Part shown: piece after piece, positions 7,263-24,024 of the stretch
Position numbering within the stretch: the first letter of the stretch is position 1
Layout of the letters: every line of letters begins with the position of its first letter
Origin: a virus
Strand: one strand, 5' to 3'
IMG/VR virus record: IMGVR_UViG_3300025668_000040
Location: 1-26,176 of that record
Length of the DNA stretch: 26,176 nt
Translations under genes and position numbers: made by a program
Notes under the pieces: model-generated
What the model saw: the letters and a program-made list of their open reading frames with translations, nothing else
The model's database searches: none
What the model was told of the DNA's origin: nothing

Positions 7263-7598
7263 ATGAGACCATTATGCAAATGCGGAGAGCGTCCTGCCGC
7301 AATAAATTACAAAAAAGGTAAGAAAACATACTATCGTAAGTTATGTGAAACTTGTTTGCGTAACGGTTTAGGACACGGTATACCTAAATGGAAACAACGT
7401 GGATACGAGAAAAAAGATGCTTGTGAGAAATGTAATTTTAAATCTAAACACCCTGAGCAGTTTAATGTATATCATATTGATGGGGATTTAGAAAATTGTC
7501 GCCCTGCTAACTTAAAAACTATATGTGCTAACTGCCAACGGGTTATTCAAAAAGATGGAGTTGTTTGGAAGCAGGGAGATCTTGTTCCTGATTTTTAA
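7263..7598 (+). CDS. Small HNH-type zinc-binding protein, probably degenerate
   Basis: The 111-residue basic protein carries zinc-type Cys pairs: C5/C7 with C28/C31, and C54/C57 with C88/C91. Between the latter pair is an HNH-like segment, NVYHIDGDLENCRPANLK (68-85), ending in ICANCQ. In the usual HNH consensus (DHIDGxxxNN...NLxxLCxxCH) the residue before the first His is Asp and the last position is His. Here they are Tyr70 and Gln92, while His71, Asp73 and Asn83 remain. Free-standing HNH genes are common insertions among T4-like structural genes. It stands alone on the plus strand between minus-strand genes, and its last 56 bases overlap the 3' end of the dNMP kinase gene. Cleavage activity is doubtful; DNA binding is plausible. 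Confidence 0.7.
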   Translation: MRPLCKCGERPAAINYKKGKKTYYRKLCETCLRNGLGHGIPKWKQRGYEKKDACEKCNFKSKHPEQFNVYHIDGDLENCRPANLKTICANCQRVIQKDGVVWKQGDLVPDF

Positions 7599-10587: not shown

Positions 10588-12011
10588 TGCAACATTTTTA
10601 TGATGGACAAATAAGAAGGTACTTGACACAGATTATACGTCTGTTTGGACAATTTAGTTATAAAGATGGTCAAGGTAGATTAGTACAAGTACCAGTTATG
10701 TATGGTGATTTAACTAGGCAAGTTGGAAGCATTTTACGTGACAATAGCGAGAACAAAATACCTAGTGCGCCACGTATGGCTGTATACATTACTAATTTAG
10801 AAATGGATACTGCAAGATTAGCTGATAGTAGTTACGTAAACAAACTAAACGTACGAGAACGTGCATATGATAGTGCAGGACAAGAATATTTAAATCAAGC
10901 AGGAAAAAATTATACAGTTGAACGCTTAATGCCTACTCCGTATACTCTTACTGTTAATGTTGATATTTGGAGTACAAATACAGATCAAAAATTACAAATA
11001 CTTGAACAAATTTTTATGTTGTTTAATCCTAGTTTAGAAATACAAACTACAGACAACTATATTGACTGGACTAGTCTAAGTGTGTTAAATATGGATAATA
11101 TTAATTTTACTTCAAGATCAATCCCAACTGGTACTGAAAACGAGATCGACGTAGCTACTATAACATTAACTACACCAATCTTTATTAGTCCGCCGGCAAA
11201 AGTTAAGAAACTTGGTGTTATTACTAAAATCATTACAGCTATATTTGCAGACAACGGACTAGAAGTAAATATAGACGAAAACGCATATACACAAAGTTTA
11301 GTTGAACAAAAAATTAAAGAAAATGAAGAAACTGATAAAATTAACAACGGGCAAGCATTAACTAATGAAGATGCATTAGTTGTTACTACATATCAAGATT
11401 ATGACATTGTGTTTATTGACGGAGTTGCTAAACTAATAAAGAACGGAGTTGTTGGATCAACTTCATGGACAGCCTGGATGATTGCACAGCCATTTATTTA
11501 TGAAGCAGGGGTAACACAACTTAGATTACAACGAAGTACAGGATTAGAGATTGTCGGAACTGTTCAAATTAATACATTAGATGAAACAGAATTACAAATT
11601 GTTTCACTTGATGAAGATTCATTACCTTCAGATAGTGACATTGTTGGGCCTAACGGTACTAGAGGAAGTATAGAATATATAATCGATCCTACACGCTTTG
11701 ATCCAAGACAAGTTCAAGATAGTTCAACAAATACTCGATTATTATTACTAGGTAGTATCGGCGATGCATCAAATGTCAACGGAGCAATTGCTTGGAAAAA
11801 TGAAGATAATAGTAATTTTGTTGCAAGCGAAAATGATATTATCGAATGGGACGGATTAAGTTGGCACATAGTCTTTGATGCTAGTTCTGTATCTAACGAA
11901 ACTTTTGTTACTAATCTTAATACACAAACTCAATACAAATGGACTGGCGAAAATTGGATATTGTCATACGAAGGCGAATATCCAAACGGCACTTGGAGAA
12001 TGACATACTAG
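10587..12011 (+). CDS. gp15: Tail completion/sheath stabiliser gp15, with a long C-terminal extension
   Basis: The 474-residue protein has a gp15-like N-terminal domain of about 230 residues. It includes QHFYDGQIRRYLTQIIRLFG, VPVMYGDLTRQVGSILRDNS, IPSAPRMAVYITNLEMDTAR, VERLMPTPYTLTVNVDIWS, QKLQILEQIFMLFNP and ATITLTTPIFISPPAKVKKL. T4 gp15 has 272 residues and caps the tail tube and sheath before joining the head. The last 240 residues are extra, acidic and Asn/Ser/Thr-rich, with two short units IIEWDGLSWHIVFD and QYKWTGENWILSYEG. Translation is coupled to gp14 by a one-base TAATG overlap. Confidence 0.82.
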   Translation: MQHFYDGQIRRYLTQIIRLFGQFSYKDGQGRLVQVPVMYGDLTRQVGSILRDNSENKIPSAPRMAVYITNLEMDTARLADSSYVNKLNVRERAYDSAGQEYLNQAGKNYTVERLMPTPYTLTVNVDIWSTNTDQKLQILEQIFMLFNPSLEIQTTDNYIDWTSLSVLNMDNINFTSRSIPTGTENEIDVATITLTTPIFISPPAKVKKLGVITKIITAIFADNGLEVNIDENAYTQSLVEQKIKENEETDKINNGQALTNEDALVVTTYQDYDIVFIDGVAKLIKNGVVGSTSWTAWMIAQPFIYEAGVTQLRLQRSTGLEIVGTVQINTLDETELQIVSLDEDSLPSDSDIVGPNGTRGSIEYIIDPTRFDPRQVQDSSTNTRLLLLGSIGDASNVNGAIAWKNEDNSNFVASENDIIEWDGLSWHIVFDASSVSNETFVTNLNTQTQYKWTGENWILSYEGEYPNGTWRMTY

Positions 12012-12024
12012 CATAATTATTAGT

Positions 12025-12456
12025 ATGAGAGACATCGTTTGTAGTGGCGCATTAATTTATTCTTTAGAATCAAACAGATTTCTATTTTTGCATAGAGCAA
12101 ATGGGAAACGTAATAACCTGTGGGGGCTTGCAGGTGGCGGTAATGAAGAGGGCGAAAGTCCTTTTGAAGGATTGCGTCGCGAAATTGAAGAAGAAATTGG
12201 CGTAATAGATATTAAGAAAACAATACCATTAGAAACTTTTATTTCTAATGACTCTAAGTTTCACTTCCATACATATCTGTGCGTTATTGAAAAAGATTTC
12301 CTACCAAAATTAAATAGCGAACATGACGGTTTTGCGTGGGTTAGTTTTGGAAAATGGCCAAAGCCCCTACATTCCGGATTAATGAACACTTTAAATAGAA
12401 AGAGTAATATTACAAAATTAAAAACAGTTATTGATGTAATAAAACTACTTGACTAA
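12025..12456 (+). CDS. Nudix hydrolase
   Basis: The 143-residue protein carries a complete Nudix box at residues 38-60: Gly38, five residues, Glu44, seven residues, then REIEEEIGV (52-60). This matches the GX5EX7REUXEEXGU signature, with Glu56 and Glu57 placed to bind the metal. It hydrolyses a nucleoside diphosphate linked to another group. The size and the N-terminal LWGLAGGG recall sugar-nucleotide hydrolases of the GDP-mannose type, but the substrate cannot be fixed. It is the first gene after gp15 and the first of the sugar island, so an ADP- or GDP-sugar is a reasonable guess. CATAATTA-TTAGT-ATG at its start resembles the leaderless late box at 3075-3082 (14 of 16 bases). Confidence 0.82.
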   Translation: MRDIVCSGALIYSLESNRFLFLHRANGKRNNLWGLAGGGNEEGESPFEGLRREIEEEIGVIDIKKTIPLETFISNDSKFHFHTYLCVIEKDFLPKLNSEHDGFAWVSFGKWPKPLHSGLMNTLNRKSNITKLKTVIDVIKLLD

Positions 12457-12477
12457 CCTAACGGAGTATAGTATAAT
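12449..12477 (+). promoter_or_regulatory. Sigma70-type promoter before hldE
   Basis: TTGACT (12449-12454), 17 bases and TATAAT (12472-12477) form a strong host-type promoter that overlaps the end of the Nudix gene. Its expected RNA start is at or next to the ATG at 12484. The GGAG at 12463-12466 lies within the promoter and is too far from the ATG (17 bases) to act well. Confidence 0.65.
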
Positions 12478-12483
12478 ATAGAT

Positions 12484-13644
12484 ATGCAAGTATTAATCAT
12501 TGGCGATATTATTATCGATAGATATATTCATGGAACTACTACTAGATTAAATCCTGAAGCACCTGTTCCTGTTGTAAATGTAACCAACGAATACGAGTCG
12601 TACGGTGGTGCATCTTTAGTATTTAAAAACTTAGAATCACTTGGTGTACATGTAACACAACTTCATTACGATGATGAAAAATCAATAAAGACAAGAGTGC
12701 TAAGTGATAATCATTATATTACACGTATTGATCAAGATGTTATTGCAAACGGAGACGGTATTGCAGATGATATTGAAGAATTAGATTTGTCTGACTTTGA
12801 ATATGTAATTTTAAGTGATTATAATAAAGGTGTGCTTGATGCTGCACCACGAATAATTAAACACTGTAATAAGCACAATTGTAAAGTTATTGTTGATCCA
12901 AAAAGACATGCAGATCATTATAAAGGTGCATGGTTAGTTAAACCTAATGCTAAAGAATTTATTGATCTTGGGTTTGATAAATGGGAAGGTAATATAATTA
13001 TCACTAGCGGCGGTAATACATGTACTGCTGAATTTGAAAAAATTAGATATATCTCTACACCTAATAACGTTGAAGTATCAGATGTAACTGGTGCTGGAGA
13101 TTGTTTTCTTGCCTCTTTTGTTTATGGATTAACAAACGGAATGAAGTTTCAAGAATGTCTTGATATTGCTGTTGTTGGTTCAACCGAAAGTGTAAAGCGG
13201 CATGGTACTTACGTTCTAACGCCTGAAGACATTAGAAAAAAGACAGTATTTACAAACGGGTGTTTTGACATACTACATACTGGGCACTTAACACTTCTTA
13301 AAGAAGCTAAAGCGCAAGGTGATTATTTGATTGTAGGATTAAATTCAGACGAGTCTATACAGAACTTAAAGGGTAACGATCGTCCTTATAATAATTTTGC
13401 TATACGTAGACAACAACTTGAATTAATTCCGTATGTAGATGAAATTATTGAATTTAGTGAAGAAACCCCTTATAATTTAATTAAAGATATAAAACCTAAT
13501 TTAATTGTTAAAGGTGGCGACTATACAATAGAAGAAGTAGTAGGTCACGATTTAGCACCTGTCTATATTGTGCCTACAGTTAAAGGACATAGTACAACAG
13601 ATATTTTAAAGGCAAGAGATGAAAATACTAATAACAGGTCATAA
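12484..13644 (+). CDS. hldE: Bifunctional heptose-7-phosphate kinase / heptose-1-phosphate adenylyltransferase (HldE-like), compact
   Basis: The 386-residue protein reproduces the two-domain layout of HldE. The N-terminal PfkB-type kinase has GDIIIDRYIHG (7-17), LNPEAPVPVVNV (22-33), ILSDYNKG (109-116), VDPKR and the catalytic DVTGAGD (200-206). The C-terminal nucleotidyltransferase has TNGCFDILHTGH (257-268, HxGH at 265-268), VGLNSD, RPYN and LIVKGGDY (340-347). The kinase phosphorylates D-glycero-D-manno-heptose 7-phosphate at C1. After GmhB removes the 7-phosphate, the second domain adds AMP to give ADP-D-glycero-beta-D-manno-heptose. E. coli HldE has 477 residues; about 80-90 are missing, mostly from the kinase middle. 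It overlaps hldD by 26 bases. Confidence 0.9.
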   Translation: MQVLIIGDIIIDRYIHGTTTRLNPEAPVPVVNVTNEYESYGGASLVFKNLESLGVHVTQLHYDDEKSIKTRVLSDNHYITRIDQDVIANGDGIADDIEELDLSDFEYVILSDYNKGVLDAAPRIIKHCNKHNCKVIVDPKRHADHYKGAWLVKPNAKEFIDLGFDKWEGNIIITSGGNTCTAEFEKIRYISTPNNVEVSDVTGAGDCFLASFVYGLTNGMKFQECLDIAVVGSTESVKRHGTYVLTPEDIRKKTVFTNGCFDILHTGHLTLLKEAKAQGDYLIVGLNSDESIQNLKGNDRPYNNFAIRRQQLELIPYVDEIIEFSEETPYNLIKDIKPNLIVKGGDYTIEEVVGHDLAPVYIVPTVKGHSTTDILKARDENTNNRS

Positions 13645-14440
13645 AGGATTTGTAGGACAGAATTTAACATTCTATTTACAAGATAATTTTGAGTTATCAG
13701 GATACGAATGGCAGGATGATTTTTTACCCGAAGTAGAAGGATTTGATTGGGTTATACACCTTGGAGCAATCTCTGCTACTACAGAAACAGATGTAGACAA
13801 AGTTATGTTACAAAACTATGAGTTTTCTAAATGGCTTTATCATCAATGTAATACTAAAGGTGTAAACTTTCAATATGCTAGTAGTGCCAGTGTATACGGT
13901 ACTAATACAGACTTTAACGAAGACGCTCCTAAGCAACCACAGAGCCCATATGCATACAGTAAATATCTATTTGATAGATGGGTATGGCAACAGCAAAAAC
14001 ATAATATTGTAGTTCAAGGATTACGTTATTTTAATGTATTTGGACCGTTTGAAGATCATAAAAATGATATGATGAGTCCAGTGAGTAAGTTTACTACCCA
14101 AGCTACAGAAACTGGAACTATAACATTATTTGAAAATAGTGACAAATATAAAAGAGATTTTATATCTGTTAATGATATTTGTAAAATACATTTACAACTA
14201 TTAAATAATAAAAAGTCAGGACTGTTTAATACAGGAACTGGCAAAGCAACAAGTTTTCAAACAGTGGCAGAAGCAATTGCTAAAAAATATAATGCAGAAA
14301 TAAACTATATAGCAATGCCTAATAAATTAAAAGGACAATATCAAGAATACACTTGCGCTGATATAAAAAAATTAAGTACAGTAACAAGTGGAATTGAATT
14401 TGAAACAGTAGAGGAATATATTAATGGATCAACCAACTAG
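13619..14440 (+). CDS. hldD: ADP-L-glycero-D-manno-heptose 6-epimerase (HldD-like)
   Basis: The 273-residue short-chain dehydrogenase-type protein starts with an NAD(P)-binding GHKGFVG (7-13). It keeps the HldD-specific WVIHLGAISATTETD (44-58), SSASVYG (88-94) and the catalytic Tyr111-Ala-Tyr-Ser-Lys115 motif. Further matches are RYFNVFGPFEDHKNDM (136-151), YKRDFISVNDI, FNTGTGKATSFQTVAEAI and a KLKGQYQEYT segment near the C-terminus, all with close counterparts in bacterial HldD. The enzyme inverts C6 of ADP-D-glycero-beta-D-manno-heptose to the L-glycero form used by heptosyltransferases. E. coli HldD has 310 residues. It overlaps hldE (26 bases) and the cupin gene (17 bases), a tight co-translated order. 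Confidence 0.9.
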   Translation: MKILITGHKGFVGQNLTFYLQDNFELSGYEWQDDFLPEVEGFDWVIHLGAISATTETDVDKVMLQNYEFSKWLYHQCNTKGVNFQYASSASVYGTNTDFNEDAPKQPQSPYAYSKYLFDRWVWQQQKHNIVVQGLRYFNVFGPFEDHKNDMMSPVSKFTTQATETGTITLFENSDKYKRDFISVNDICKIHLQLLNNKKSGLFNTGTGKATSFQTVAEAIAKKYNAEINYIAMPNKLKGQYQEYTCADIKKLSTVTSGIEFETVEEYINGSTN

Positions 14441-14810
14441 ATTAACCGGTGTAGTAAATAAGGGCTGGGGCTACGAAATGATATGGGCCACCAACGAACA
14501 CTACTGCGGTAAGATAATGGTATTTAATAGAGAAGGTGCTAAGACAAGTATGCACTTTCATAAAGAAAAAGACGAAACTTGGTTTGTAAATAGTGGAATA
14601 TTTAAAGTTGCGTATATTGATACTGATAATTCTACATTATATGAAAAAGAATTAATCGAAGGTGCAACATGGCATAATCCTCCGTTACAACCACATCAGC
14701 TAATTTGTGTTAGTAAAGAAGGAAGTGTAACTGAAGTTAGCACTGCTGATAGTGTTGAGGACAATTATAGAATTGGTCCTGGCGATAGTCAAAAAATAGA
14801 AAGTAAGTAA
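14424..14810 (+). CDS. Small cupin, sugar-phosphate isomerase/epimerase type
   Basis: The 128-residue protein has a textbook cupin motif 1: Gly38-x5-His44-x-His46-x4-Glu51-x6-Gly58. A second motif contains NPPLQPHQL, with His91 as the fourth metal ligand. The opening GWGYEMIWATNEHYCGKIM recalls the stand-alone cupin related to type II phosphomannose isomerases. The family acts on sugars or sugar phosphates, but the reaction cannot be read from sequence. Standing directly after hldD, it probably acts on the same heptose or a related sugar. An AGAGGAA ribosome site lies 8 bases before the ATG, inside hldD. Confidence 0.8.
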   Translation: MDQPTRLTGVVNKGWGYEMIWATNEHYCGKIMVFNREGAKTSMHFHKEKDETWFVNSGIFKVAYIDTDNSTLYEKELIEGATWHNPPLQPHQLICVSKEGSVTEVSTADSVEDNYRIGPGDSQKIESK

Positions 14811-15422
14811 ATGGAAATAAAAGAATTATTCCCAGTAGCTATACTAACGCATCATATAGATAAAGATATGGCCGACACAATGGAGAATGAGATTGTTCCA
14901 TTATTAGATAAGTTAGAACGTAACACACCTATACTAGATTCAGTTGGTGATGAATACATTTCTGTAGATACTATGTACACAGATTTTTGGGAAAACAAAA
15001 TTCCAGTGCATGAAATTGTTCCTGACTTTTGGGACGTAGTAAGAACAGCTGCATACGAGTATGCTGATCAAACAAGCTATTTTGTTAATCCTAATTTTAA
15101 AGTCCGTTACTGGACACAAAATTATGTAAAACAAGATAGACACGACATACATCAACATGGCATAAATGGCATAAGCGGAACCTATTTTATTAGAGCAAAT
15201 GAAAATGCAGGACCAATACGCTTCTATAATCCTAACAACACAGCCGAGTATGTTCGTGCAGGCAATCCTTTAAATAAATTTGTACAAGGACATCACGACA
15301 TATGGCCTGAAAAAGGCTTGTTGTTATTATTCCCTTCGTATATAAAACATGCTGTAGAATCTGGCAGAAATGATGATGTTGTTAGAACTTCAATATCATT
15401 TGACTGTTGTCCTGGAGTTTAA
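14811..15422 (+). CDS. 2OG-Fe(II) oxygenase-like protein, tandem copy 1
   Basis: The 203-residue protein has the double-stranded beta-helix pattern of the TIGR02466-like putative 2OG-Fe(II) oxygenases. It contains a YWTQNYVKQDRHDIHQHGIN strand with His114 and His116, GTYFIRANENAGPIRFYNP (123-141), WPEKGLLLLFPSYIKHAVES with His180, and Arg192 in VVRTSISFD, which would hold 2-oxoglutarate. The acidic iron ligand expected in a HxD/E...H triad is not obvious. The substrate is unknown; small phage members have been linked to proteins, sugars and bases. Its ATG follows the cupin stop with no gap. The next gene is a clear paralogue. Confidence 0.7.
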   Translation: MEIKELFPVAILTHHIDKDMADTMENEIVPLLDKLERNTPILDSVGDEYISVDTMYTDFWENKIPVHEIVPDFWDVVRTAAYEYADQTSYFVNPNFKVRYWTQNYVKQDRHDIHQHGINGISGTYFIRANENAGPIRFYNPNNTAEYVRAGNPLNKFVQGHHDIWPEKGLLLLFPSYIKHAVESGRNDDVVRTSISFDCCPGV

Positions 15423-15989
15423 ATGTTTACAAACTTATTTCCAATACCTATCTTACGTATAAAACTTAGTGATGAAATTGCAGATGCAATGGAGGAAAAA
15501 ATAGTTCCATTACTAGATAGTCTTAGTAGAGAAAACGATTCAGTATCTACAGATTTTTGGGAAAAGCAAATTCCAGTACATGAACTAGTACCAGACTTTT
15601 TCCAACAGGCAATTGAAGGTGCTCTTGAATTCCAAGAACATACAGGTATTGAAATAGATCCTGAAATACGTATTAAATATTGGACTCAAGATTATTTGCC
15701 AAATGATAGTCATCAAATGCATCATCACGGAATATACGGTATTAGTGGCACATATTGGGTTAGAGCAAATGAGGATGCTGGGTCATTTAGATTGTTTAGT
15801 ACAAACCCACATAGTGATTTAGTTTTACATAATAAAAAGACCGAATACACTGTAGCATACGAAGATATATGGCCTGAAAAAGGTATGATGTTATTATTCC
15901 CTTCATACATGAAACATTGTGTAATGCAAAGTGGTAAAAATGCAATTCGTACTTCTGTTTCATTTAACTTTGGATGTTCTAATGTATAA
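15423..15989 (+). CDS. 2OG-Fe(II) oxygenase-like protein, tandem copy 2
   Basis: The 188-residue protein parallels the preceding one almost throughout: an LFPIPILRIKLSDEIADAME start, STDFWEKQIPVHELVPDFF (42-60), IKYWTQDYLPNDSHQMHHHG with His100/His102, GTYWVRANEDAGSFRLF (109-125), WPEKGMMLLFPSYMKHCV with His165, and Arg176 in IRTSVSFN. It lacks the insertion near residue 40 of copy 1 and diverges after the DAGSFRLF strand, so the two probably differ in substrate. The gap to copy 1 is zero and a GGAG site lies in its tail. The stop overlaps the gmhB ATG by 8 bases. Confidence 0.7.
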   Translation: MFTNLFPIPILRIKLSDEIADAMEEKIVPLLDSLSRENDSVSTDFWEKQIPVHELVPDFFQQAIEGALEFQEHTGIEIDPEIRIKYWTQDYLPNDSHQMHHHGIYGISGTYWVRANEDAGSFRLFSTNPHSDLVLHNKKTEYTVAYEDIWPEKGMMLLFPSYMKHCVMQSGKNAIRTSVSFNFGCSNV

Positions 15990-16674
15990 AATAGACTGGA
16001 GTACAGACAAATCTAAAACAACAAAAACGTCTACAAAAAAGAGTAATATACGCTACAGTACTGACGACCCAATACCTTATTACAATAGTACAGACAACAT
16101 TGCACCTAAAGTTGTTGTAGGATTAGATCGAGACGGTGTTATTAATATTGATCAAGGCGAGTATACATATAAAGTTAAAGATTTTGTACCAATCGAGGGT
16201 AGCTTAGAAGCTGTTGCTAAAATAAGACGCCTGGGACATAAAATTGCTATTATTACTAATCAAGGCGGAATTGCTAAAGGAATGTTTTCCGAATCTGATG
16301 TAGACAAAGTACACGACTATATGTTTGAGTTACTTGGCGAAGCAGGTTGTTTAAGTGTTGATGCATTATATTATAGTGCATCGAGTTTACGTAATGATAT
16401 GTATGCTAAACCCAATGTTGGTATGTTTAAAAGATGCGAAGAAGAAAATTCATTTATTAAATTTAAGAAAGGATATTTTGTTGGAGATAAAATATCCGAT
16501 CTAAAAGCTGCATTTAAAATTGGTGCAACTCCAATACTAGTTAAAACAGGTTACGGTTTAGAAACTATAAAAGAATTAAATAAATTTTCTAATCAAAAGA
16601 TAAAAAAGAAAACTATTATATTTGATGATTTAATGTCTGTTGCTAATTGGCTGGAAAATCGATACCAAAATTAG
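15982..16674 (+). CDS. gmhB: GmhB-like heptose 1,7-bisphosphate 7-phosphatase (HAD-IIIA), zinc loop missing
   Basis: The 230-residue protein contains a HAD phosphatase: VVGLDRDGVIN (45-55) with catalytic Asp49 and Asp51, ITNQGGIAKGMF (91-102), a KPNVGMFKR segment (143-151), and YFVGDKISDLKAA (165-177) with the metal-binding GDKxSD. The TNQGGIxKG and late GDKxSD match GmhB, which removes the 7-phosphate between the two HldE steps. Residues 1-43 are an extra Lys/Ser/Thr-rich extension. The usual GmhB Cys/His zinc loop before the KPxxGM segment is replaced by SASSLRNDMYA, without Cys or His. ATG 15982 fits the family; the upstream 17 codons are the tail of the previous gene in another frame. Its last 32 bases overlap the convergent oxygenase gene. 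Confidence 0.82.
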   Translation: MYKIDWSTDKSKTTKTSTKKSNIRYSTDDPIPYYNSTDNIAPKVVVGLDRDGVINIDQGEYTYKVKDFVPIEGSLEAVAKIRRLGHKIAIITNQGGIAKGMFSESDVDKVHDYMFELLGEAGCLSVDALYYSASSLRNDMYAKPNVGMFKRCEEENSFIKFKKGYFVGDKISDLKAAFKIGATPILVKTGYGLETIKELNKFSNQKIKKKTIIFDDLMSVANWLENRYQN

Positions 16675-17260
16675 CACTAATAGATACACGCAACTTTTCT
16701 GTTTTATTATATGTTACATAGTGATCTAAGTTACTTGGAAAAAATACAATATCGCCTTCTTGCATTAAAGGATTAAATAATTTACCGTTATTTCCAGGGC
16801 CATAAAATCTTTCAGTTAAGTGAGTCGGAAACCAATTCAATGCACTATTATAAAACATAAACTGTCCACTGTCAGGATCATTATCGGGCAAGTCAAGTAC
16901 ATATGCACAACTAACTAAATTATTTCCGCCACCGTGCGAATGTACGTCTTGATGTTGATGTTGACTATATTTGTTTGCCCAGGCTCTTCCTGATAAATTT
17001 TTAAGATCATCTGGAGCCATACCTAAGTAATTAAGGTACGCTTGTAACGGTCCTTGCACATTTTCATAAAATATATCCCACGGTAATTGATTATTTTCTT
17101 CATGCGAATTATGCGTAGTTTCGCAATTACATTCCCACTGCGAACTACTATGTTGAAATGCAGTACTGTCTTTAATAAAAGATGAAAATTGTTCTTTTAT
17201 TTCGTTGTGCCCAGGCATTTCACATTTTAAAATAGGTGCACCAAAAATACTATCTATCAT
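16643..17260 (-). CDS. 2OG-Fe(II) oxygenase-like protein, minus-strand copy
   Basis: The 205-residue protein belongs to the same broad putative oxygenase class as the two plus-strand copies. It has WANKYSQHQHQDVHSHGGGN with His107/His109, SGQFMFYNSA (131-140), EGDIVFFPSNLDHYVTYN with His180, and Arg191 in LRVSISANFG. Identity with the other two is low outside these blocks, and the N-terminal half (CNCETTHNSHEEN) differs, so this is a separate lineage rather than a recent duplicate. It is the last gene of the glycosyltransferase-carbamoyltransferase unit: its start overlaps the carbamoyltransferase stop by 11 bases. Its 3' end overlaps gmhB by 32 bases. Confidence 0.72.
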   Translation of the reverse strand: MIDSIFGAPILKCEMPGHNEIKEQFSSFIKDSTAFQHSSSQWECNCETTHNSHEENNQLPWDIFYENVQGPLQAYLNYLGMAPDDLKNLSGRAWANKYSQHQHQDVHSHGGGNNLVSCAYVLDLPDNDPDSGQFMFYNSALNWFPTHLTERFYGPGNNGKLFNPLMQEGDIVFFPSNLDHYVTYNKTEKLRVSISANFGIDFPAN

Positions 17261-19052
17261 TTTTAATAGACACTTTCACATTATGTTCAGGCAAGTACAA
17301 GTACTCAATTCCACTATTAGCAAGAGTTCTAAATGCGTCATCTAATGTTTCTACTAATGGCTCTCCGCCTAAATTAAATGATGTATTAAATATAATTGGG
17401 ACGCCTGTTTGTTTATAAAACTCGTTGATTAAATCATAATAAACTTCATTCTGTTCTCTAGTTACTGTTTGTATACGACATGTGCCATCAACATGTATAA
17501 TACTCGGAATCTTTTCTGCTACACCTTCTTGACAATTCATAGCATACATCATATGTGGTGAATCTTTCATTCCACGCATATCAAACCATTCTTCTGCATG
17601 TTCAGCTAGTATAGTACCAGCAAACGGACGGAAGTATTCTCTACGTTTAATTCTATTAACATGATCTTTGCCATTTGGATCAGTTGGATCATAAAGTATA
17701 CTTCTGTTACCTAATGCACGTGGGCCTGATTCTGATCGTCCTTGAAATAATGATACAATATTCTTTTCAGTAATTAATTTAATAATATCTTCATTTGTTG
17801 CTTCAGTAACATCGGCATTGTATTGTAACGCTAACATTTCAATTTCGTCTCTTGAATATGTATTCTCAGGACCTAAGTATAAACTTTCACCAAAGGGCCG
17901 TTGTGTAGTACTTTTAGTAAGTGAATGATATCCCATCATTGCTGCACCGATAGCAGTACCAGCATCACTAGAAATAGGTTCAACGTATAAATTAATACCT
18001 TCGTCTTTTAGTTCTTTTAAGTACCAATAATTTGCAACACAGTTTAACCCATACCCGCCACTAAGTACAACATTCTTATGTCCTGTTGTTTCCACAGCCT
18101 TACGTATTAACCGCAATACTTCTGCTTGGCTTTCTGTTTGCACAGCATACGCAAGATCTCTTCTACTTTGTAGTTTAGTCAAGTCGTCAATTTTCTCAGG
18201 TGTAACTAGTTCGTTAAACCGTCCTTCATTAACTAACGCACCATTTGGATATGTAGGAATAATAACGTTTCTATCTGACGATCTCCAATTACCGCCAGCA
18301 TCAGTATACAATGGAGGAATATTATCATTAGGTTTTCCATATGGAAATAACCCCATTGTTTTACCTGCTTCAATTGATTGAAATCCGCAATACTGTGTTA
18401 CTGCTTCGTATGTTTTAACAATACCAGCAGTGTCATCAATAATAGCTTCATGTGTTTCTTTGTCTTCCATAAACCATTCACTTGTCATAGCCGGATCTCG
18501 CATTGATATATACGGTCCATTACCACCTAAATGTTTGTATACTGTATGAAAGTTATCTGGGTACGCACATGTAAAGATTGACTCTAATTCCCAAACTGTA
18601 GTATCAGTGCCACTAATGTTCATTGGAATAAATGTGCCAGCGCCGTCTACAATAACACTTACTGCCTTGTCAAATCCACTACGATAAAATGCACAGCCTG
18701 CATGTAATTTATGATGTATTCTTGATAAATCAATAACCTGAGGATGTTCCCAATTGTTTACATCTGGACCTCGTTCAATCAAGCCTAGTTTACGTGCTAG
18801 ACCTGTATACACATTGTCGCCTGTAAAATCAACTGTTGCCGCTGATTCTTCTAAACTTTGTGTATGTGCAACGAATATATAATCTAATTTATCAGTATAT
18901 TCAAGTATCTTAATCATACTTGCATATGGACCGCCGTCATACTTTTGACGACTTAGTCTTTCTTCTTCTATAGCGAATACAATTTCACCGTCTTTAAGCA
19001 AACACACACCGCCATTATGACCACGTGTTATTCCTGCTATCCACTGGCTCAT
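17250..19052 (-). CDS. Carbamoyltransferase, NodU/CmcH/TobZ family
   Basis: The 600-residue protein has the full family layout. The N-terminal ASKHA-type domain has GITRGHNGGVCLLKDGEIVF (7-26), EEERLSRQKYDGG (29-41), HHKLHA (113-118), a VIVDGAGT strand (134-140), and SGGYGLNCVAN (331-341). The C-terminal domain begins near 400, with the GRSESGPRALGNRSIL signature (438-453), RRYFRPFAG-like RREYFRPFAGT (470-480) and FNTSFNLGGEPLVET near 555-570. These enzymes use carbamoyl phosphate and ATP to put a carbamoyl group on a sugar or antibiotic hydroxyl. Next to a heptosyltransferase-like gene, a heptose hydroxyl is the likely acceptor; 7-O-carbamoyl heptose is known from Pseudomonas LPS core. Its ATG overlaps the glycosyltransferase stop (ATGA). 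Confidence 0.92.
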   Translation of the reverse strand: MSQWIAGITRGHNGGVCLLKDGEIVFAIEEERLSRQKYDGGPYASMIKILEYTDKLDYIFVAHTQSLEESAATVDFTGDNVYTGLARKLGLIERGPDVNNWEHPQVIDLSRIHHKLHAGCAFYRSGFDKAVSVIVDGAGTFIPMNISGTDTTVWELESIFTCAYPDNFHTVYKHLGGNGPYISMRDPAMTSEWFMEDKETHEAIIDDTAGIVKTYEAVTQYCGFQSIEAGKTMGLFPYGKPNDNIPPLYTDAGGNWRSSDRNVIIPTYPNGALVNEGRFNELVTPEKIDDLTKLQSRRDLAYAVQTESQAEVLRLIRKAVETTGHKNVVLSGGYGLNCVANYWYLKELKDEGINLYVEPISSDAGTAIGAAMMGYHSLTKSTTQRPFGESLYLGPENTYSRDEIEMLALQYNADVTEATNEDIIKLITEKNIVSLFQGRSESGPRALGNRSILYDPTDPNGKDHVNRIKRREYFRPFAGTILAEHAEEWFDMRGMKDSPHMMYAMNCQEGVAEKIPSIIHVDGTCRIQTVTREQNEVYYDLINEFYKQTGVPIIFNTSFNLGGEPLVETLDDAFRTLANSGIEYLYLPEHNVKVSIKNDR

Positions 19053-20014
19053 TTACTGCCTCCTACACTTAATAATGTTTTATTAGGTTTTCCTAATTTT
19101 TTTCTAATTGAATCAACAATATCTTTAGTTTGTGCTTTAGATAAATCCATACATTTGTCGTTTACTCTATCAGGTTCTTCTTCATTTGTAATTCTAATTG
19201 GACTATACACACGCATGTCTTTGCCAATATCAAAAATTGTAACACTCTTATCATCTACGTATGATGTGTTTATAGGATATGTACTTCCGATAACTACTGT
19301 TGACTGTGTATCAAGTGCTTTAGCAATATGTTGTCCTACACTATCACAACCTAAGAAATGATCTGCGGCATTAATAACTCCAGCCCATACACGTATGTCT
19401 GGTATTTGTGGTTGAGCTATAGGTATATTATCATCTTTTGTATTTTTCATATTTAATTGTATTTCGCTCATTAATATAACTGCAAAATCTTTTTTCAGTT
19501 CATTAGCAATATCAAGCATATCTTCAGCTCTAAAACTTCTTGATGTAACATCAATTAAATCTTCTTCAGTTGTTCGTCCAAACGGTTGTATTACAATTAC
19601 TTTATCTTTGCCAGTTGTTTCTTTAACTTCTTTGACTACATTTTCGCCTTGTGCTTTTTCAATTTTATTAAGATACACTGACGGAATAATAACGTCACGT
19701 AAGCCTTTGTTATTAATTTCTATATCAAACGCTTGTGCTAAACTACATTCTTGATTATAATATTCCCAAACTCTGTACGGTTCTGGCGAAACACAATTTC
19801 TTTCTTTAATAAAAGATTCAAACAATCCCTTATGCCATGTGTCGTATGCTCGTTTGTGAAGTGTTGGATGACCTTTATAAAAGTCTGTGCCTGCTTCGCA
19901 AACAATAATAAAGTCGTCGTTTGGATTTTCTTTTTCGTATGCTTCAAATGCAGGTATTGAAGTTATAACACGGCCAGCGCCGCCATTGATAAAGAAAGCT
20001 GTTGATCTTGTCAT
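19049..20014 (-). CDS. GT9/heptosyltransferase-like glycosyltransferase
   Basis: The 321-residue protein resembles GT-B enzymes of family 9 (ADP-heptose:LPS heptosyltransferases). The N-terminus reads TAFFINGGAGRVITSIPAFE (5-24), equivalent to the GGLGDxIxxTPAL loop. The C-terminal half has IVIQPFGRTTEEDL, FAVILMS and HFLGCDSVGQHIAKALDTQS followed by TVVIGSTYP, equivalent to the D-S/T-G-P-x-H donor-site motif and FGPT loop. The presence of ADP-heptose genes nearby supports heptose as donor, though the motifs are divergent. I chose ATG 20014, nine bases after AAGAGGTG; the in-frame GTG at 20026 is inside the ribosome site. It is first in a three-gene unit. Confidence 0.75.
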   Translation of the reverse strand: MTRSTAFFINGGAGRVITSIPAFEAYEKENPNDDFIIVCEAGTDFYKGHPTLHKRAYDTWHKGLFESFIKERNCVSPEPYRVWEYYNQECSLAQAFDIEINNKGLRDVIIPSVYLNKIEKAQGENVVKEVKETTGKDKVIVIQPFGRTTEEDLIDVTSRSFRAEDMLDIANELKKDFAVILMSEIQLNMKNTKDDNIPIAQPQIPDIRVWAGVINAADHFLGCDSVGQHIAKALDTQSTVVIGSTYPINTSYVDDKSVTIFDIGKDMRVYSPIRITNEEEPDRVNDKCMDLSKAQTKDIVDSIRKKLGKPNKTLLSVGGSK

Positions 20015-20029
20015 ATAATAATACACCTC

Positions 20030-20047: not shown

Positions 20048-20055
20048 TATTTATA
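20048..20055 (-). promoter_or_regulatory. Exact T4 late promoter box TATAAATA
   Basis: On the minus strand this is the exact T4 late consensus and the only exact match noted before a gene start in this window. It precedes the glycosyltransferase-carbamoyltransferase-oxygenase unit, with the predicted start about 28 bases before the ATG. This would place sugar transfer in the late phase with virion assembly. Confidence 0.65.
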
Positions 20056-20144: not shown

Positions 20145-20954
20145 TTATTCTAATACATCTGTGCGAGGCCAAGATGAATCTACAAATATTATAGGAACAT
20201 TTGCTTCTTGCATTGCTGCAGGGAAATCACGTAGTAATTGTCTATATACAACAAGTTTGTCCCACTTTGCTTTGTCAATGTCTTTTAGAATTAAAAATAA
20301 TGTGTCAGTATTAGAAAGTCTCTCGTCTCGTTCTATACGTAAGTCTTCCCAAGTGTTAGCTGCGCCAATTATATCTTCATTTGTATGCTTATACAAATCT
20401 AATTCATTAGTTTCAAAATTCCACACACTAAGTTTTTCGTCATACAAATCATCTGGATGAATTGGATACTCATATTCAAATGGAACATATCCTTCAGGTA
20501 CTGGTACGGATTTAGTACCCGGAGTTTCTTCCCATTCGTCTTTGTCTTTATAGTTATCATGATAGTCGGACATAACTTCTGCATCTAAAGGATATTCTCT
20601 AGCATCTAATTTAACAATTACCATTTCTTCAGTACTTGGCATGTATTGCCAGTTGTCCGTTGACTCTAGTACTTCAAACTCTCGTTGTACGTGACGAATG
20701 AGATGTGTATCTGTTTCTACCCAAAGATACAAAAATTTAGGACCTTTATATACAGTCTCAATAGTTTCAGTTTCTTCACCATCCATATAATTGTCTATTG
20801 GACATTCATAAGAGTAGTTTACTTCGACCCATTCAGTTCCGTGTTCGTCAGTCATCTCAAGGTCGGTATAGTCAATTACTTCACTATCTAGCTCGTCTCG
20901 ATTGTCATCGATGTTTGGATTTCCTTCGTCGATTATGTTTTCTTCTTCACTCAT
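20145..20954 (-). CDS. Acidic protein with tail-fibre assembly chaperone-like C-terminus
   Basis: The 269-residue protein is strongly acidic. The first 60 residues are mostly Glu/Asp/Asn (SEEENIIDEGNPNIDDNRDE). The middle has Trp/Tyr-rich beta-like stretches (FLYLWVETDTHLIRHVQREF). The end has RIERDERLSNTDTLFLILKD, KWDKLVVYRQLLRDFPAAMQ and VDSSWPRTDVLE. The last 70 residues follow the pattern of phage tail-fibre assembly chaperones: an R-x-x-R-D-x-x-L-x-x-T-D helix, then Y-R-Q-x-L-R-D-x-P and a closing W-P. Such chaperones help fibre tips trimerise and usually lie just after the fibre gene, as here. ATG 20954 lies seven bases after GGAG; ATG 20957 is also possible. The Cys-rich protein is the likely client. 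Confidence 0.65.
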   Translation of the reverse strand: MSEEENIIDEGNPNIDDNRDELDSEVIDYTDLEMTDEHGTEWVEVNYSYECPIDNYMDGEETETIETVYKGPKFLYLWVETDTHLIRHVQREFEVLESTDNWQYMPSTEEMVIVKLDAREYPLDAEVMSDYHDNYKDKDEWEETPGTKSVPVPEGYVPFEYEYPIHPDDLYDEKLSVWNFETNELDLYKHTNEDIIGAANTWEDLRIERDERLSNTDTLFLILKDIDKAKWDKLVVYRQLLRDFPAAMQEANVPIIFVDSSWPRTDVLE

Positions 20955-20957
20955 CAT

Positions 20958-21821
20958 TTAACTCCAAGTTATTCTCATCATGCCAGGCTTACCAGGAGTA
21001 CCTCTACAGTAACAAAGACCTCCACCACAAGCTGATTTCATTGAATTTGATCCACCGCCGGATACTTGTCTAAATCCTCTACAACAGTTAGTACAAGCAC
21101 AGTATTGAACACAGTTTTCAATATGATAAGTGTGTCCGTTACTAATTCCCCAAGATGCTGAAACTGACGTGTGTCGTCCAACACAGTCACAGTTTCCTCT
21201 GTACTTAATAAATGCTGGTTCGTCACCTAAGTCTACCCAGTCAAACTTTTGACAAAAACATAGTCCGTTAGCACACATGCCGTCTGTTCTGTTACCTTGG
21301 TTATTACATCTGCAACTACAGTAAAGGTTATATCCGCCTCTGCCGCCTGTCATACATGTACAACATAAGCATCGTCCTTCAAATCGTGTCATACATCCTC
21401 TTGGTGCATCGCAACATGCAGTAAAACACCCGCAACCGTTGTTTGTTGTACCGTTGCCGCCTGCGCCAATACACCAGCAGTAAATACATCCTGGTGCAAA
21501 GCATCCGGCCTGTCTAAATAGTGTTCTACGACCGTAGTAGCCACTCATTGATCCACAGCTAACCATGTCACACCAGCAACCTTGACAACAGTGTCCTGCG
21601 CCCGAGCCGCCTCCGCTCCACATTTCAAATTGTACTGTTTGGGCACAATCAGGTACTGTCCAAGTTCCTGTTCGTTGACAGTGTGATCTACATGTGTGTG
21701 GACCACAACATACTAAACAAGTGTTAAAGCAAGTACATGTACCACCTGGAGATCTACCAGCTGTTCGCTGACAAGTCCCGTCTGGGTATTTCATACCCGT
21801 GCTAATCATCTCAGTTGCCAT
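20958..21821 (-). CDS. Cysteine-rich glycine-rich tail-tip adhesin candidate
   Basis: The 287-residue protein has 43 cysteines (15 percent) spread over its whole length as CxC, CC and CxxC groups. Beneath these is the framework of glycine-rich phage adhesins: GTWTVPDCAQTVQFEMWSGG (52-71) corresponds to the usual TWTVPxGVTxVxVEVWGGGG start, with further GGG/GGRGG loops and a GTPGKPGMMRITWS end. Gly, Asn, Tyr and Arg are common; Lys and Leu are rare. There is no signal peptide. It follows the S74 fibre by one base and precedes the chaperone-like gene, so it is probably a fibre-tip or baseplate receptor-binding protein. The cysteines could form disulfides after lysis or bind metal. A GGGAG site lies 9 bases before the ATG. 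Confidence 0.75.
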   Translation of the reverse strand: MATEMISTGMKYPDGTCQRTAGRSPGGTCTCFNTCLVCCGPHTCRSHCQRTGTWTVPDCAQTVQFEMWSGGGSGAGHCCQGCWCDMVSCGSMSGYYGRRTLFRQAGCFAPGCIYCWCIGAGGNGTTNNGCGCFTACCDAPRGCMTRFEGRCLCCTCMTGGRGGYNLYCSCRCNNQGNRTDGMCANGLCFCQKFDWVDLGDEPAFIKYRGNCDCVGRHTSVSASWGISNGHTYHIENCVQYCACTNCCRGFRQVSGGGSNSMKSACGGGLCYCRGTPGKPGMMRITWS

Positions 21822-21822
21822 A

Positions 21823-24024
21823 TTATGCGTCTCCCTTTAATGTATTTATTTCTTGTTTTAATTCTTTAATTGCTTCAACTAATAGTGGTACAATTCTTTC
21901 GTATTGTAGTGTTATGTAGTTTTCGCCTGAAAGGCTTTCGCCTTCCTCACCTCTATCAAACGGTGCATCAAAAATTACTTGAGGAATAACTGCTTGAACC
22001 TCTTGAGCAATTAGACCTACTTCTTCAACTTCTGCACTAAAACCTGCTTCTATTGCTTTTTCATTCCAGTTATATGTTACGCCATTAAGTGACATAACTT
22101 TATCTAATGCACCTGTAATGTTTGTAACGTTTGTTTTAAGTCTAGCATCTGATGTGTTTGAAACAATATTTTCAGTAGCAGTAATACGTCCTGCAACGTT
22201 TGGATCTGCTGTGTTAACGCCTATACAACGTATACTTGTCATATTCTTAGATGCGTCAATAACGTCACTGCCAGCCATTTGGAATGATCCAACGTTTACG
22301 TTAACACCTGCATCATCTTTAATTTGGAACCAAATCTTATTGCTGTCTTCTGGCTCATAAAAATCAAAGCCTTCGCCTGATACCAGTCTAATTGCACCAT
22401 CAACACCTGAGTCACTTGATCCGTTAAATGTAATTTGTGGCTGTGCGTTTCCGTATAACACTAAACCTGGACCGTTTACATTTAACGTGCCGTTCATAGT
22501 ATGTGAGTCACTTGTAGCATTACCTAATGTACCGTTACCGTTATAACTAAATGTTCCACTTGCACTTAAATTTGTAAATGAGCCAGTAGATCCTGATATT
22601 GACATGTTACTAATTGTACCACTACCCGGAGATAGTGTTAACGATCCAGCTGGTGAAATTGTAACTGTACCTGTGCCAGTCGGCGATAGTGTAACATTTT
22701 TATTTGATGGACTTAATGTAACTGTGTCGTTAGCATCTAATGATGTAAACTGTCCTGAACTTCTTGATACGTTACCAATTGCTCCTACAAATCCGCCCCC
22801 ACTATATATTCTTTTAGCAATACTTGCTCCGCCTTCGCAACGTAGCTGTCCTGTATCGCCTGTAGCATTTGTTGCCTCTCCGGTGCCTGTAATGTCAACT
22901 ACGCCACTTGCATTTATACTTGTAAATGTACCTGTATTGCTTGATACATTGCCAATTGGGCCTTGGAAACTACCTGCATAAATTGCACCGCTTGCACCAA
23001 TTCCGCCTGTTACTACTAGTGTACCTGATGTAGTATTAGTTGACGCTGTATTTTTTGTAAGTGTTACTGAATCGCTTGCAGTTAATGTAGTAAACCCGCC
23101 GGTACTTTTTGTTGCTGCACCGATTGGAGTATTATCCATTGCGCCAGCAAATATTGATCCGCCGACTCCTAGTCCACCTGTTACAACAACTGCTCCACTT
23201 CCTACACCTGAACTTGCAGTTGATGAACTAAATGTTGTATTACCACTTGCATTAAGTGTTGTAAATCTACCTGTGCCTGCTGTAGTAGCACCAACGTTGA
23301 TGCCGTCCATGTTACCAGCTGTATCAGAAGTAATAGTTACTGTGTCACCTGATCCAATTACTACTGGTCCACCTGGATCAATAGTTACTGAACTAGTTGC
23401 ACCTGTTGGTGATATATTAATTGTTTGTGCAGCTGCTGTAAAGTCTAAATTACCTGGAAATGCTGTTGGCTTTCCTGCTTCGCCGAGTGTAATTGTTCCT
23501 GTTGTAGATGCTAAAGTTAAATCACCTGCTGGTCTAATAGTAGCTTGCCCGCCTGGCTGAACTGAAACGGAAGATTGCGGACTAATGTCTACTGTGCCTG
23601 TGCCTGTTGGTTTGATTTGTACATTTGCATCTGCTGGATTTAGTTCTACTGGACCATCTGCATTTAATAAAGCATTTGTTGTTAACGGTAATTCAAATAC
23701 TGTAGTACCAGCTAACGCACTTGTTAGTACGTAGTTTGCACCATCTGATGTTAATTGGTATGTTGAGTTAGTTGGAATATCTACTGACGATCCTAGTGTA
23801 ACACCGTTACCTGTAATTTGTCCTGCTGCTGTACTAATAGTAATCATGTCAGCAGTTGCATTATAGAACGTTTGTCTACTACCTGGAAAAAACACTGGAC
23901 TTACCATTGTTACTTCGTATCCTGGTGTACCTGTCAACGATATTATTCCGCCAGTGAATGCGTAAGTGAATTCAGTTTCACTATCTACCTCCAGTGTTTG
24001 CGGTGCTGTATTATAACGTGCCAT
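21823..24024 (-). CDS. Repeat-containing tail fibre with S74 intramolecular chaperone
   Basis: The 733-residue protein has four parts. Residues 1-110 form a virion-attachment-type beta domain. About 110-250 carry short Ser/Thr/Gly beta repeats (NVQIKPTGTGTVDISP). About 251-536 hold five copies of a 57-residue unit beginning TGxFTxLxAS. After a jelly-roll-like region (NAQPQITFNGSSDSGVDGAI, then FDFYEPED) comes the S74 chaperone, with the SDARLK self-cleavage dyad Ser625-Asp626, then YNWN, VEEVGLIAQEVQAVIPQV and a C-terminal coiled coil (ALVEAIKELKQEI-like). The chaperone trimerises the fibre and then cuts itself off. It is preceded by AGGGGAA and lies in one unit with the small structural gene and the Cys-rich gene. 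Confidence 0.88.
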   Translation of the reverse strand: MARYNTAPQTLEVDSETEFTYAFTGGIISLTGTPGYEVTMVSPVFFPGSRQTFYNATADMITISTAAGQITGNGVTLGSSVDIPTNSTYQLTSDGANYVLTSALAGTTVFELPLTTNALLNADGPVELNPADANVQIKPTGTGTVDISPQSSVSVQPGGQATIRPAGDLTLASTTGTITLGEAGKPTAFPGNLDFTAAAQTINISPTGATSSVTIDPGGPVVIGSGDTVTITSDTAGNMDGINVGATTAGTGRFTTLNASGNTTFSSSTASSGVGSGAVVVTGGLGVGGSIFAGAMDNTPIGAATKSTGGFTTLTASDSVTLTKNTASTNTTSGTLVVTGGIGASGAIYAGSFQGPIGNVSSNTGTFTSINASGVVDITGTGEATNATGDTGQLRCEGGASIAKRIYSGGGFVGAIGNVSRSSGQFTSLDANDTVTLSPSNKNVTLSPTGTGTVTISPAGSLTLSPGSGTISNMSISGSTGSFTNLSASGTFSYNGNGTLGNATSDSHTMNGTLNVNGPGLVLYGNAQPQITFNGSSDSGVDGAIRLVSGEGFDFYEPEDSNKIWFQIKDDAGVNVNVGSFQMAGSDVIDASKNMTSIRCIGVNTADPNVAGRITATENIVSNTSDARLKTNVTNITGALDKVMSLNGVTYNWNEKAIEAGFSAEVEEVGLIAQEVQAVIPQVIFDAPFDRGEEGESLSGENYITLQYERIVPLLVEAIKELKQEINTLKGDA
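21843..21850 (-). promoter_or_regulatory. Late-type box AATAAATA before the Cys-rich gene
   Basis: The minus-strand octamer AATAAATA lies inside the last codons of the S74 fibre gene, 22 bases before the ATG at 21821. The GGGAG ribosome site (21831-21835) falls after the predicted RNA start (near 21837). It could raise expression of the last two genes of the fibre unit. Confidence 0.5.
22417..23274 (-). repeat. Five in-frame copies of a 57-residue fibre repeat
   Basis: Units start at protein residues near 251, 308, 364, 423 and 480 with T/S-G-x-F-T-x-L/I-x-A. The first three continue to a VVVTGGLGVGGSIFAG-type stretch and a PIGxxxxS end. Copies 4 and 5 are more divergent. Spacing is 56-59 residues. 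They build a regular fibre shaft. Confidence 0.75.

Follow-up and report, generated by a model that had tools for sequence, protein, structure and literature searches.

Cyanophages such as P-SSM2 carry so-called lipopolysaccharide (LPS) genes, for whose function the accessible portion of a 2010 review (PMC2984593) offers only a suggestion. These genes are odd because cyanobacterial LPS is reported, in the available text of PMC4390846, to be without heptoses and 3-deoxy-D-manno-octulosonic acid (KDO). Precedent for heptosylation of protein from ADP-heptose is provided by TibC and the BAHT autotransporter heptosyltransferases (PMC4358343, as excerpted). Among open-licence papers, a literature search returned nothing on point for phage-encoded ADP-heptose, P-SSM2 heptose LPS, or a phage carbamoyltransferase together with heptose. 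The stretch of viral DNA considered here, referred to as the window, is the whole of IMG/VR record IMGVR_UViG_3300025668_000040, a genome fragment of 26,176 b that carries genes of the HldE, HldD, and GmhB families, a cupin, a GT9-like glycosyltransferase, and an O-carbamoyltransferase. Overall, the pathway is a known one in a phage setting that is new; one isomerase may also be new, and the genes are connected with those of the tail. The reading that we favor, at somewhat less than even confidence, is that late in infection the GT9-fold transferase and the O-carbamoyltransferase modify a virion protein with heptose and a carbamoyl group. If it is true, the question becomes open to mass spectrometry on cultured phages.

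The transferase pair and its tail-gene neighbors

The GT9-like gene (19049-20026, minus strand) opens with GTG at 20026, ATG at 20014 being the likelier start. The match of its product to Pfam Glyco_transf_9 is under the cut-off (E=0.0072) and its profiles gave no GT9 match among PDB sequences; membership of the GT9 family rests on the predicted fold (predicted local distance difference test, pLDDT, 86.4; predicted template modeling score, pTM, 0.87). A fold search with this model returned the GT9 protein 3tov (Z 22.0, root-mean-square deviation 3.8, 281 residues), WaaF (Z 19.1), TibC (Z 18.8), and WaaC (Z 17.6), with three plant NDH-complex chains interspersed (Z 18.1-18.7) and the following entry at 11.9. 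Structure prediction thus yields the GT9 fold that the first-pass annotation of the window had proposed.

The position of the WaaC/WaaF catalytic Asp is occupied in this family by an Arg (Arg19, numbered from the GTG), which is invariant in 31 of 31 sequences. This placement follows from the alignment of model residue 7 with residue 1 of 1psw and 2h1f, whereby 19 corresponds to 13 provided that the first stretch contains no gap; we take Asp13 to be the catalytic Asp of WaaC. For TibC, the excerpted source gives Asp-110 as the catalytic Asp. Since the catalytic position carries an Arg, transfer may differ or be absent, and the protein would be at most an altered GT9. The heptose genes might then work while the GT9-like protein draws on a different donor, or has no catalytic activity and serves in sugar binding or assembly, the carbamoyltransferase acting on a virion protein or some other small molecule. 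The Arg, the Pfam score, and the ranking of plant NDH chains among the enzymes are all consistent with such a scenario, which we nevertheless regard as quite improbable given that Asp228 and His233 in the C-terminal motif are invariant and that HldE accompanies the GT9-like gene in nearly all phage records. In 23 phage records (about ten distinct phages), the match covers at least 80% of the GT9-like protein; 22 of these also match HldE, and the sole record that does not is a 4-kb fragment. Three further records, whose matches span about three quarters of the length at 24-26% identity, were left out of this count and are not among the best 40 of 65 HldE matches. The reverse does not hold: P-TIM68, S-T4, and Sf-CH5/CH8 match HldE and fall outside the 26 GT9-like records. 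That some phages, such as P-TIM68, have heptose genes and no GT9-like gene of this family counts against the favored reading.

The neighboring gene (17250-19052, minus strand) encodes, on sequence grounds, an O-carbamoyltransferase of the NodU/TobZ type. Both of its domains score well above the Pfam cut-offs (PF02543, 98.4 bits against 24; Carbam_trans_C PF16861, 203.8 bits against 27, E=1.8e-60), and its PDB sequence matches include 7xb6 (E=2.4e-59) and TobZ (E=1.9e-45). In the accessible parts of PMC9146016 and PMC10436341, cyanophage carbamoyltransferases are taken as pyrimidine-synthesis genes.

Upstream of the pair, on the same strand, lie a tail-fibre-assembly-like gene (20145-20957; phrog_4912, E=2.9e-8), a gene for a Cys/Gly-rich tail-adhesin-like protein (20958-21821; 43 Cys in 287 aa; PF21722 Gly_rich_2, E=7.7e-5, just under the cut-off), and a tail fibre gene (21823-24024; phrog_5668, E=4.6e-27). 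The second of these proteins is a candidate acceptor for the sugar and the third an alternative one. This arrangement is conserved among the IMG/VR relatives of the GT9-like gene, of which the best 80 of at least 557 confirmed were compared. In all 74 loci with at least 1.5 kb of downstream sequence, the carbamoyltransferase gene follows 3′ of the GT9-like gene on the same strand. In 55 of them the two genes overlap or are no more than 9 b apart, and in 19 the gap is 0.5-1.9 kb; two loci stop at the GT9-like gene. Cys-rich genes, defined by a length of 120 aa or more and a Cys content of 6% or more, were sought on the same strand in the 6 kb upstream, at loci with at least 1.8 kb there. They are present at all 69 testable loci, with three copies in 53, and downstream, on either strand, at one of 63. 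With near-identical GT9-like proteins removed, the upstream count is 49 of 49. The tail-fibre-assembly-like gene sits between the Cys-rich and GT9-like genes in the window and in the profile-positive relatives. The Cys/Gly-rich families themselves (260-290 aa, about 10-15% Cys) often form tandem triplets, end in a GG.GG.G(L/V)V(R/K)-like motif, and are tail-adhesin-like with a very unusual composition.

A T4-type late-promoter-like site, TATAAATA, lies before the GT9-like gene (20048-20055, minus strand) and is the only exact match in the window. Late promoters were rejected as a claim from the window alone, where TATAAATA occurs once against 4.27 expected and TAAATA 44 times against 49.9. The single TATAAATA match is not significant on its own, and only conservation across relatives is informative. 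Distinct stretches covering 80 b before and 15 b after the ORF (open reading frame) start were scanned, with mononucleotide shuffling as control; the relatives are not independent of each other. Of 68 distinct sequences at the start of the GT9-like gene, 53 contain TAAATA (11.3 expected) and 27 contain TATAAATA (1.4 expected). TAAATA is likewise frequent at gp13 (9/9) and gp14 (5/9), at close homologues of the window's Cys-rich gene (7/8), and at the sheath gene (1/1). It is rare at the sugar genes, namely the kinase (1/30), HldD (0/27), separate adenylyltransferase (0/13), GmhB (2/38), and cupin (4/26, 3.5 expected), as well as at the NUDIX (0/13), 2-oxoglutarate (2OG) oxygenase (0/31), carbamoyltransferase (3/70), and assembly-like (0/11) genes. 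The motif is also scarce at other Cys-rich copies (14/140, 8.6 expected), at S74 (1/8), and at GP15 (1/12), which complicates the picture; a shared upstream promoter would account for these motif-poor genes. A terminator-like hairpin with a T run, recognized by eye, is found between the tail-fibre-assembly-like and GT9-like genes (20120-20091, minus strand).

The first-pass annotation had the locus changing the host surface. According to this model, the phage puts heptose, possibly carbamoylated, on host LPS or capsule, thereby hiding receptors or excluding other phages. The enzymes are indeed of the type that builds the LPS core, the fold search ranks WaaC and WaaF near the top for the GT9-like protein, and the accessible portion of PMC2984593 reports a suggestion of this kind for 24 LPS genes of P-SSM2. 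Moreover, the heptose genes of P-TIM68 (10796-14559 of that record) belong to a more extensive sugar-gene cluster, which has other glycosyltransferases but no GT9-like gene of the window's family. The model is weakened by the linkage of the GT9-like/carbamoyltransferase pair to tail-adhesin-like and tail-fibre genes and by the late-promoter motif, which seems late for exclusion. For the cyanophage copies only, the reported composition of cyanobacterial LPS (PMC4390846, in the text available) counts further against it, as their hosts would be without a known heptose acceptor. We consider a host-surface role unlikely. Glycosylation of the virion fits better because the pair is tied to tail genes and the late motif, with the sugar genes mostly free of that motif. 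The interpretation first placed on the locus is, taken as a whole, partly supported.

Predicted enzymes for synthesis of the sugar

The five genes named at the outset in the block 12484-20026 are real ORFs in the places given. The list was incomplete, since it omitted a NUDIX hydrolase, the cupin, and three 2OG-Fe(II) oxygenases. The HldE-like fusion (12484-13644, plus strand; PRK11316, E=9.1e-80) joins a shortened heptose-7-phosphate kinase to an adenylyltransferase. NCBIfam models for rfaE domains I and II match with E=1.7e-50 and E=3.4e-43, the kinase domain at 172 bits (TIGR02198 cut-off 345) and the adenylyltransferase domain, in which the HTGH motif is present, at 146.9 bits (TIGR02199 cut-off 181.5); TGAGD, DPK, and NxxE motifs are also read in the translation. 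Compared with E. coli HldE, the kinase is without 27 residues (3+24) and a further 17, a point against the favored reading; comparable gaps occur in all six phage kinases aligned. Its PDB sequence matches are a putative cytidylyltransferase (5x9q, 8.9e-24), ethanolamine-phosphate cytidylyltransferase (3elb, 8e-20), and, over residues 2-55 only, heptose-7-phosphate kinase 4e84 (1.4e-18).

The HldD-like ADP-heptose 6-epimerase (13619-14440, plus strand; TIGR02197, E=6.3e-76, 255.5 bits, cut-off 274.6) is closest in the PDB to E. coli HldD (E=2.4e-52), to which its YxxxK and HK..M segments align. The GmhB-like HAD phosphatase (15982, ATG, to 16674, plus strand; PRK08942, E=1.3e-39, 135.6 bits against 178) is nearest in the PDB to D,D-heptose 1,7-bisphosphate phosphatase 4pnh (E=1.6e-20), to which its DxD motif (LDRDGVIN) aligns. 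The E. coli-type enzyme has a Cys-rich zinc loop. No such loop was found in the GmhB-like protein, which contains two Cys in all, neither within the loop. Although all three proteins score below the NCBIfam cut-offs, a heptose model is the top NCBIfam match for each, and the hidden Markov model and PDB sequence comparisons assign them, as first proposed, to the heptose families rather than to families acting on other sugars.

The entry step: GmhA, the cupin, and the mini-HAD

GmhA, searched for with PF13580, was not found in the window record, which is only 26 kb, nor in any of 18 related phage records, some of which are fragments and which include four complete cyanophage genomes; in the search control, nine of 14 genomes gave matches. 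The absence of GmhA noted at first pass is thus extended to the relatives. The conclusion drawn from it, that the host must supply the first intermediate, is doubtful, since a D-lyxose-isomerase-like cupin tracks the pathway in phages. The entry step may be filled by this cupin (14424-14810, plus strand), a candidate ketol-isomerase in place of GmhA, and not be missing. The cupin is found in 17 of the 18 related phage records; in 16 it is strong (E<1e-40), and exactly these records also have a strong HldD. In 80 IMG/VR stretches, cupin and HldD occur together in 26, HldD alone in one, cupin alone in one, and neither in 52.

Compared with PDB sequences, the cupin family profile ranks D-lyxose isomerase (2y0o, E=1e-4) and L-ribose isomerase (5avp, E=1.2e-4) first, with modest E-values (1e-4 to 8e-4) and a general cupin, 3d82, among them. 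By profile alignment, the sugar and metal contacts of Thermofilum D-lyxose isomerase, as given in the available text of PMC8378251, were mapped onto the window cupin, which keeps seven of the eight (K30, H44, H46, K49, E51, H91, and E104); K49 and E104 are invariant in all 32 sequences. The eighth contact is Val111 in the window and Asp in 15 of 32 relatives, and Asp113, two residues further on, is invariant. No paper on a cupin heptose isomerase was found among open-licence papers.

The same cupin occurs in cellular assemblies, where a scan gave 19 loci. In three Woesearchaeota metagenome-assembled genomes (MAGs; L107, L111, and L112), it leads an operon whose tandem genes also include HldD, an adenylyltransferase, and a full-length kinase that scores above the curated cut-off; GmhB is in the operon of L112, fused to the adenylyltransferase in L111, and not detected in L107. 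An ORF upstream of the L112 heptose operon (172-837) appears GT9-like by eye. At seven more loci (L094, L095, and L102-L106), a kinase and an adenylyltransferase are near the cupin, and at L094, L095, and L102 phage neck genes are present as well. For two of the three archaeal genomes, the GmhA models match only frames of at least 364 aa, although these MAGs may be incomplete. More generally, in the genomes of L107, L111, L097, and L110, TIGR00441 matches, weakly, only frames of at least 323 aa, and PF13580 adds one 278-aa frame in that of L097.

Several observations weigh against the cupin as the isomerase or against the favored reading as a whole. Val111 does so because mutation of the Thermofilum positions matching K49, E104, and Val111 is reported, in the accessible text of PMC8378251, to abolish D-lyxose isomerase activity. 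The structural search is unspecific, with CapF, quercetinase, and others outscoring the lyxose isomerases. One 145-kb phage record (L063/G004) has the GT9-like/carbamoyltransferase pair, no cupin, and a trace of HldD, and another (L030/G008) is without HldD; both may be incomplete. At nine of the 19 cellular loci (L096-L101 and L108-L110), no heptose kinase is nearby, and among the six of these searched genome-wide five have a kinase of the family elsewhere (306-349 bits) and one, L110, has none. A GmhA-like gene is present in six of ten cellular genomes searched (115-208 bits, cut-off 209), including that of L112 and several of those whose cupin has no kinase nearby. Given that cupins are versatile, host GmhA or sedoheptulose chemistry might supply the intermediate and the cupin act at a later point, perhaps on a keto sugar linked to a nucleotide. 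We consider this alternative quite possible, if short of probable, in view of the seven contacts shared with D-lyxose isomerase and the archaeal heptose operons that carry the same cupin.

A further candidate for the entry step, the 'phosphoheptose isomerase' of cyanophages, was rejected as a GmhA. An alignment of five sequences shows HAD-type motifs (DxDxT, TAR, GKP, and DD), and the profile has two clear PDB matches, 9iqw ('capsule biosynthesis protein', 1.3e-16) and 1xpj (a hypothetical protein, 3.6e-9), with no sugar-isomerase-domain protein among its five. We take 1xpj to have a HAD fold. Pfam gives weak HAD matches for two of the five sequences and none for three. On the strength of these motifs and PDB matches, the protein looks like a mini-HAD and a phosphatase candidate, in which case the annotation is wrong and the name would need correction in several phage records. 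Copies so annotated, of 108-114 aa, are at 13113-13457 in P-SSM2 (L001), 14221-14559 in P-TIM68 (L005), 20708-21043 in L002, and 17827-18153 in L004; the 'phosphoheptose isomerase' listed in the accessible part of PMC7378029 may be this one annotation. GmhB-like matches were obtained in eight records of the phage collection, the best (40%) in marine virus AG-345-O18, which has both GmhB and the mini-HAD. As for the starting sugar, a phage transaldolase, mentioned in the available portion of PMC2984593, could be a source of sedoheptulose 7-phosphate. In P-TIM68, a transketolase-like gene adjoins the kinase.

Returning to the virion-glycosylation model, the cupin would convert sedoheptulose 7-phosphate to heptose 7-phosphate, the HldE kinase would phosphorylate it at position 1, the GmhB-like phosphatase would remove the 7-phosphate, and adenylylation by HldE followed by 6-epimerization by HldD would give ADP-heptose. 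A tail protein would then receive the sugar late in infection, and carbamoylation would take place, the acceptor most likely being the Cys-rich tail-adhesin-like proteins or the neighboring fibre; a role of the modification in adsorption may be envisaged. Phage DNA is another conceivable acceptor. What the sequences themselves show is which families the genes belong to, how cupin and HldD co-occur in phages, how the genes are linked, and where the late-promoter motif lies; the substrate of the cupin, the ADP-heptose product, the acceptor, and the target of carbamoylation are deduced from these. In its widest form, the proposal is that at least two marine myovirus lineages share a cassette for ADP-heptose synthesis that includes a new, cupin-type phosphoheptose isomerase, and place carbamoylated heptose late on their own Cys-rich tail adhesins, with the isomerase also present in archaeal heptose operons; taken as a whole, it is tentative and somewhat doubtful. 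The cupin would close a gap in heptose annotation in phages and some archaea.

Genomic setting and comparison with known systems

The backbone of the window is that of a contractile-tail, jumbo-type myovirus, a large marine phage. Its sheath gene (3817-7146) is nearest to those of Sinorhizobium phage Phosso (469 kb), Pseudomonas PA5oct-type phages (about 287 kb), and Agrobacterium Atu_ph07 (490 kb). A 335-kb contig of a Neomarinimicrobiota MAG (L094) has neck genes related to those of the window and the same sugar-gene block, with a GT9-like gene of the window's family about 11 kb off. The NUDIX hydrolase (12025-12456, plus strand; Pfam NUDIX, E=2.3e-15) adjoins the cassette in the close relatives of the window (L006-L018). 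The 2OG-Fe(II) oxygenases, all matching PF13759, are at 14811-15422 (plus strand, E=2.2e-15), 15423-15989 (plus strand, E=1.1e-14), and 16643-17260 (minus strand, E=2.2e-13), and could, as a guess, hydroxylate the acceptor. An HNH-endonuclease-like ORF (7263-7598, plus strand; phrog_10822, E=0.00024) lies on the strand opposite to the sheath block.

With the known ADP-heptose pathway, the window shares the kinase, phosphatase, adenylyltransferase, and epimerase families as well as the domain order of HldE. It differs in being phage-encoded, in its shortened kinase and its GmhB without zinc cysteines, and in that GmhA was not found and a cupin possibly stands in its place. The YCxK, HxH, K.E, H, and E residues of the phage cupin are those of the D-lyxose/D-mannose and L-ribose isomerases, whereas its length (128 aa against chains of about 175-270 aa), its Val111, and its linkage to heptose phosphate genes set it apart from these enzymes. 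TibC and the BAHT enzymes have a GT9-like fold in common with the phage protein, which is without an N-terminal barrel (the alignment begins at TibC residue 88), without an autotransporter, and without the CxxC of the four-Cys iron finger, and has an Arg for the catalytic Asp.

The closest counterparts are the LPS-type cassettes of cyanophages P-SSM2, S-SSM7, and Sf-FS3, in which GT9-like, carbamoyltransferase, nucleotidyltransferase, kinase, small HAD, cupin, and epimerase genes are likewise beside tail fibres. The GT9-like proteins are 44-59% and the carbamoyltransferases 48-67% identical to those of the window, which differs in its jumbo-type backbone, its fused HldE, and its GmhB instead of the mini-HAD. 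Against Sf-FS3, the carbamoyltransferase shows 67% identity and the GT9-like protein 59%; HldE, HldD, and the cupin show 32-44%, gp15 shows 24% over 161 residues, and gp13 and gp14 have no match. From these sequence comparisons we infer that the transferase pair has been exchanged between distant myovirus lineages.

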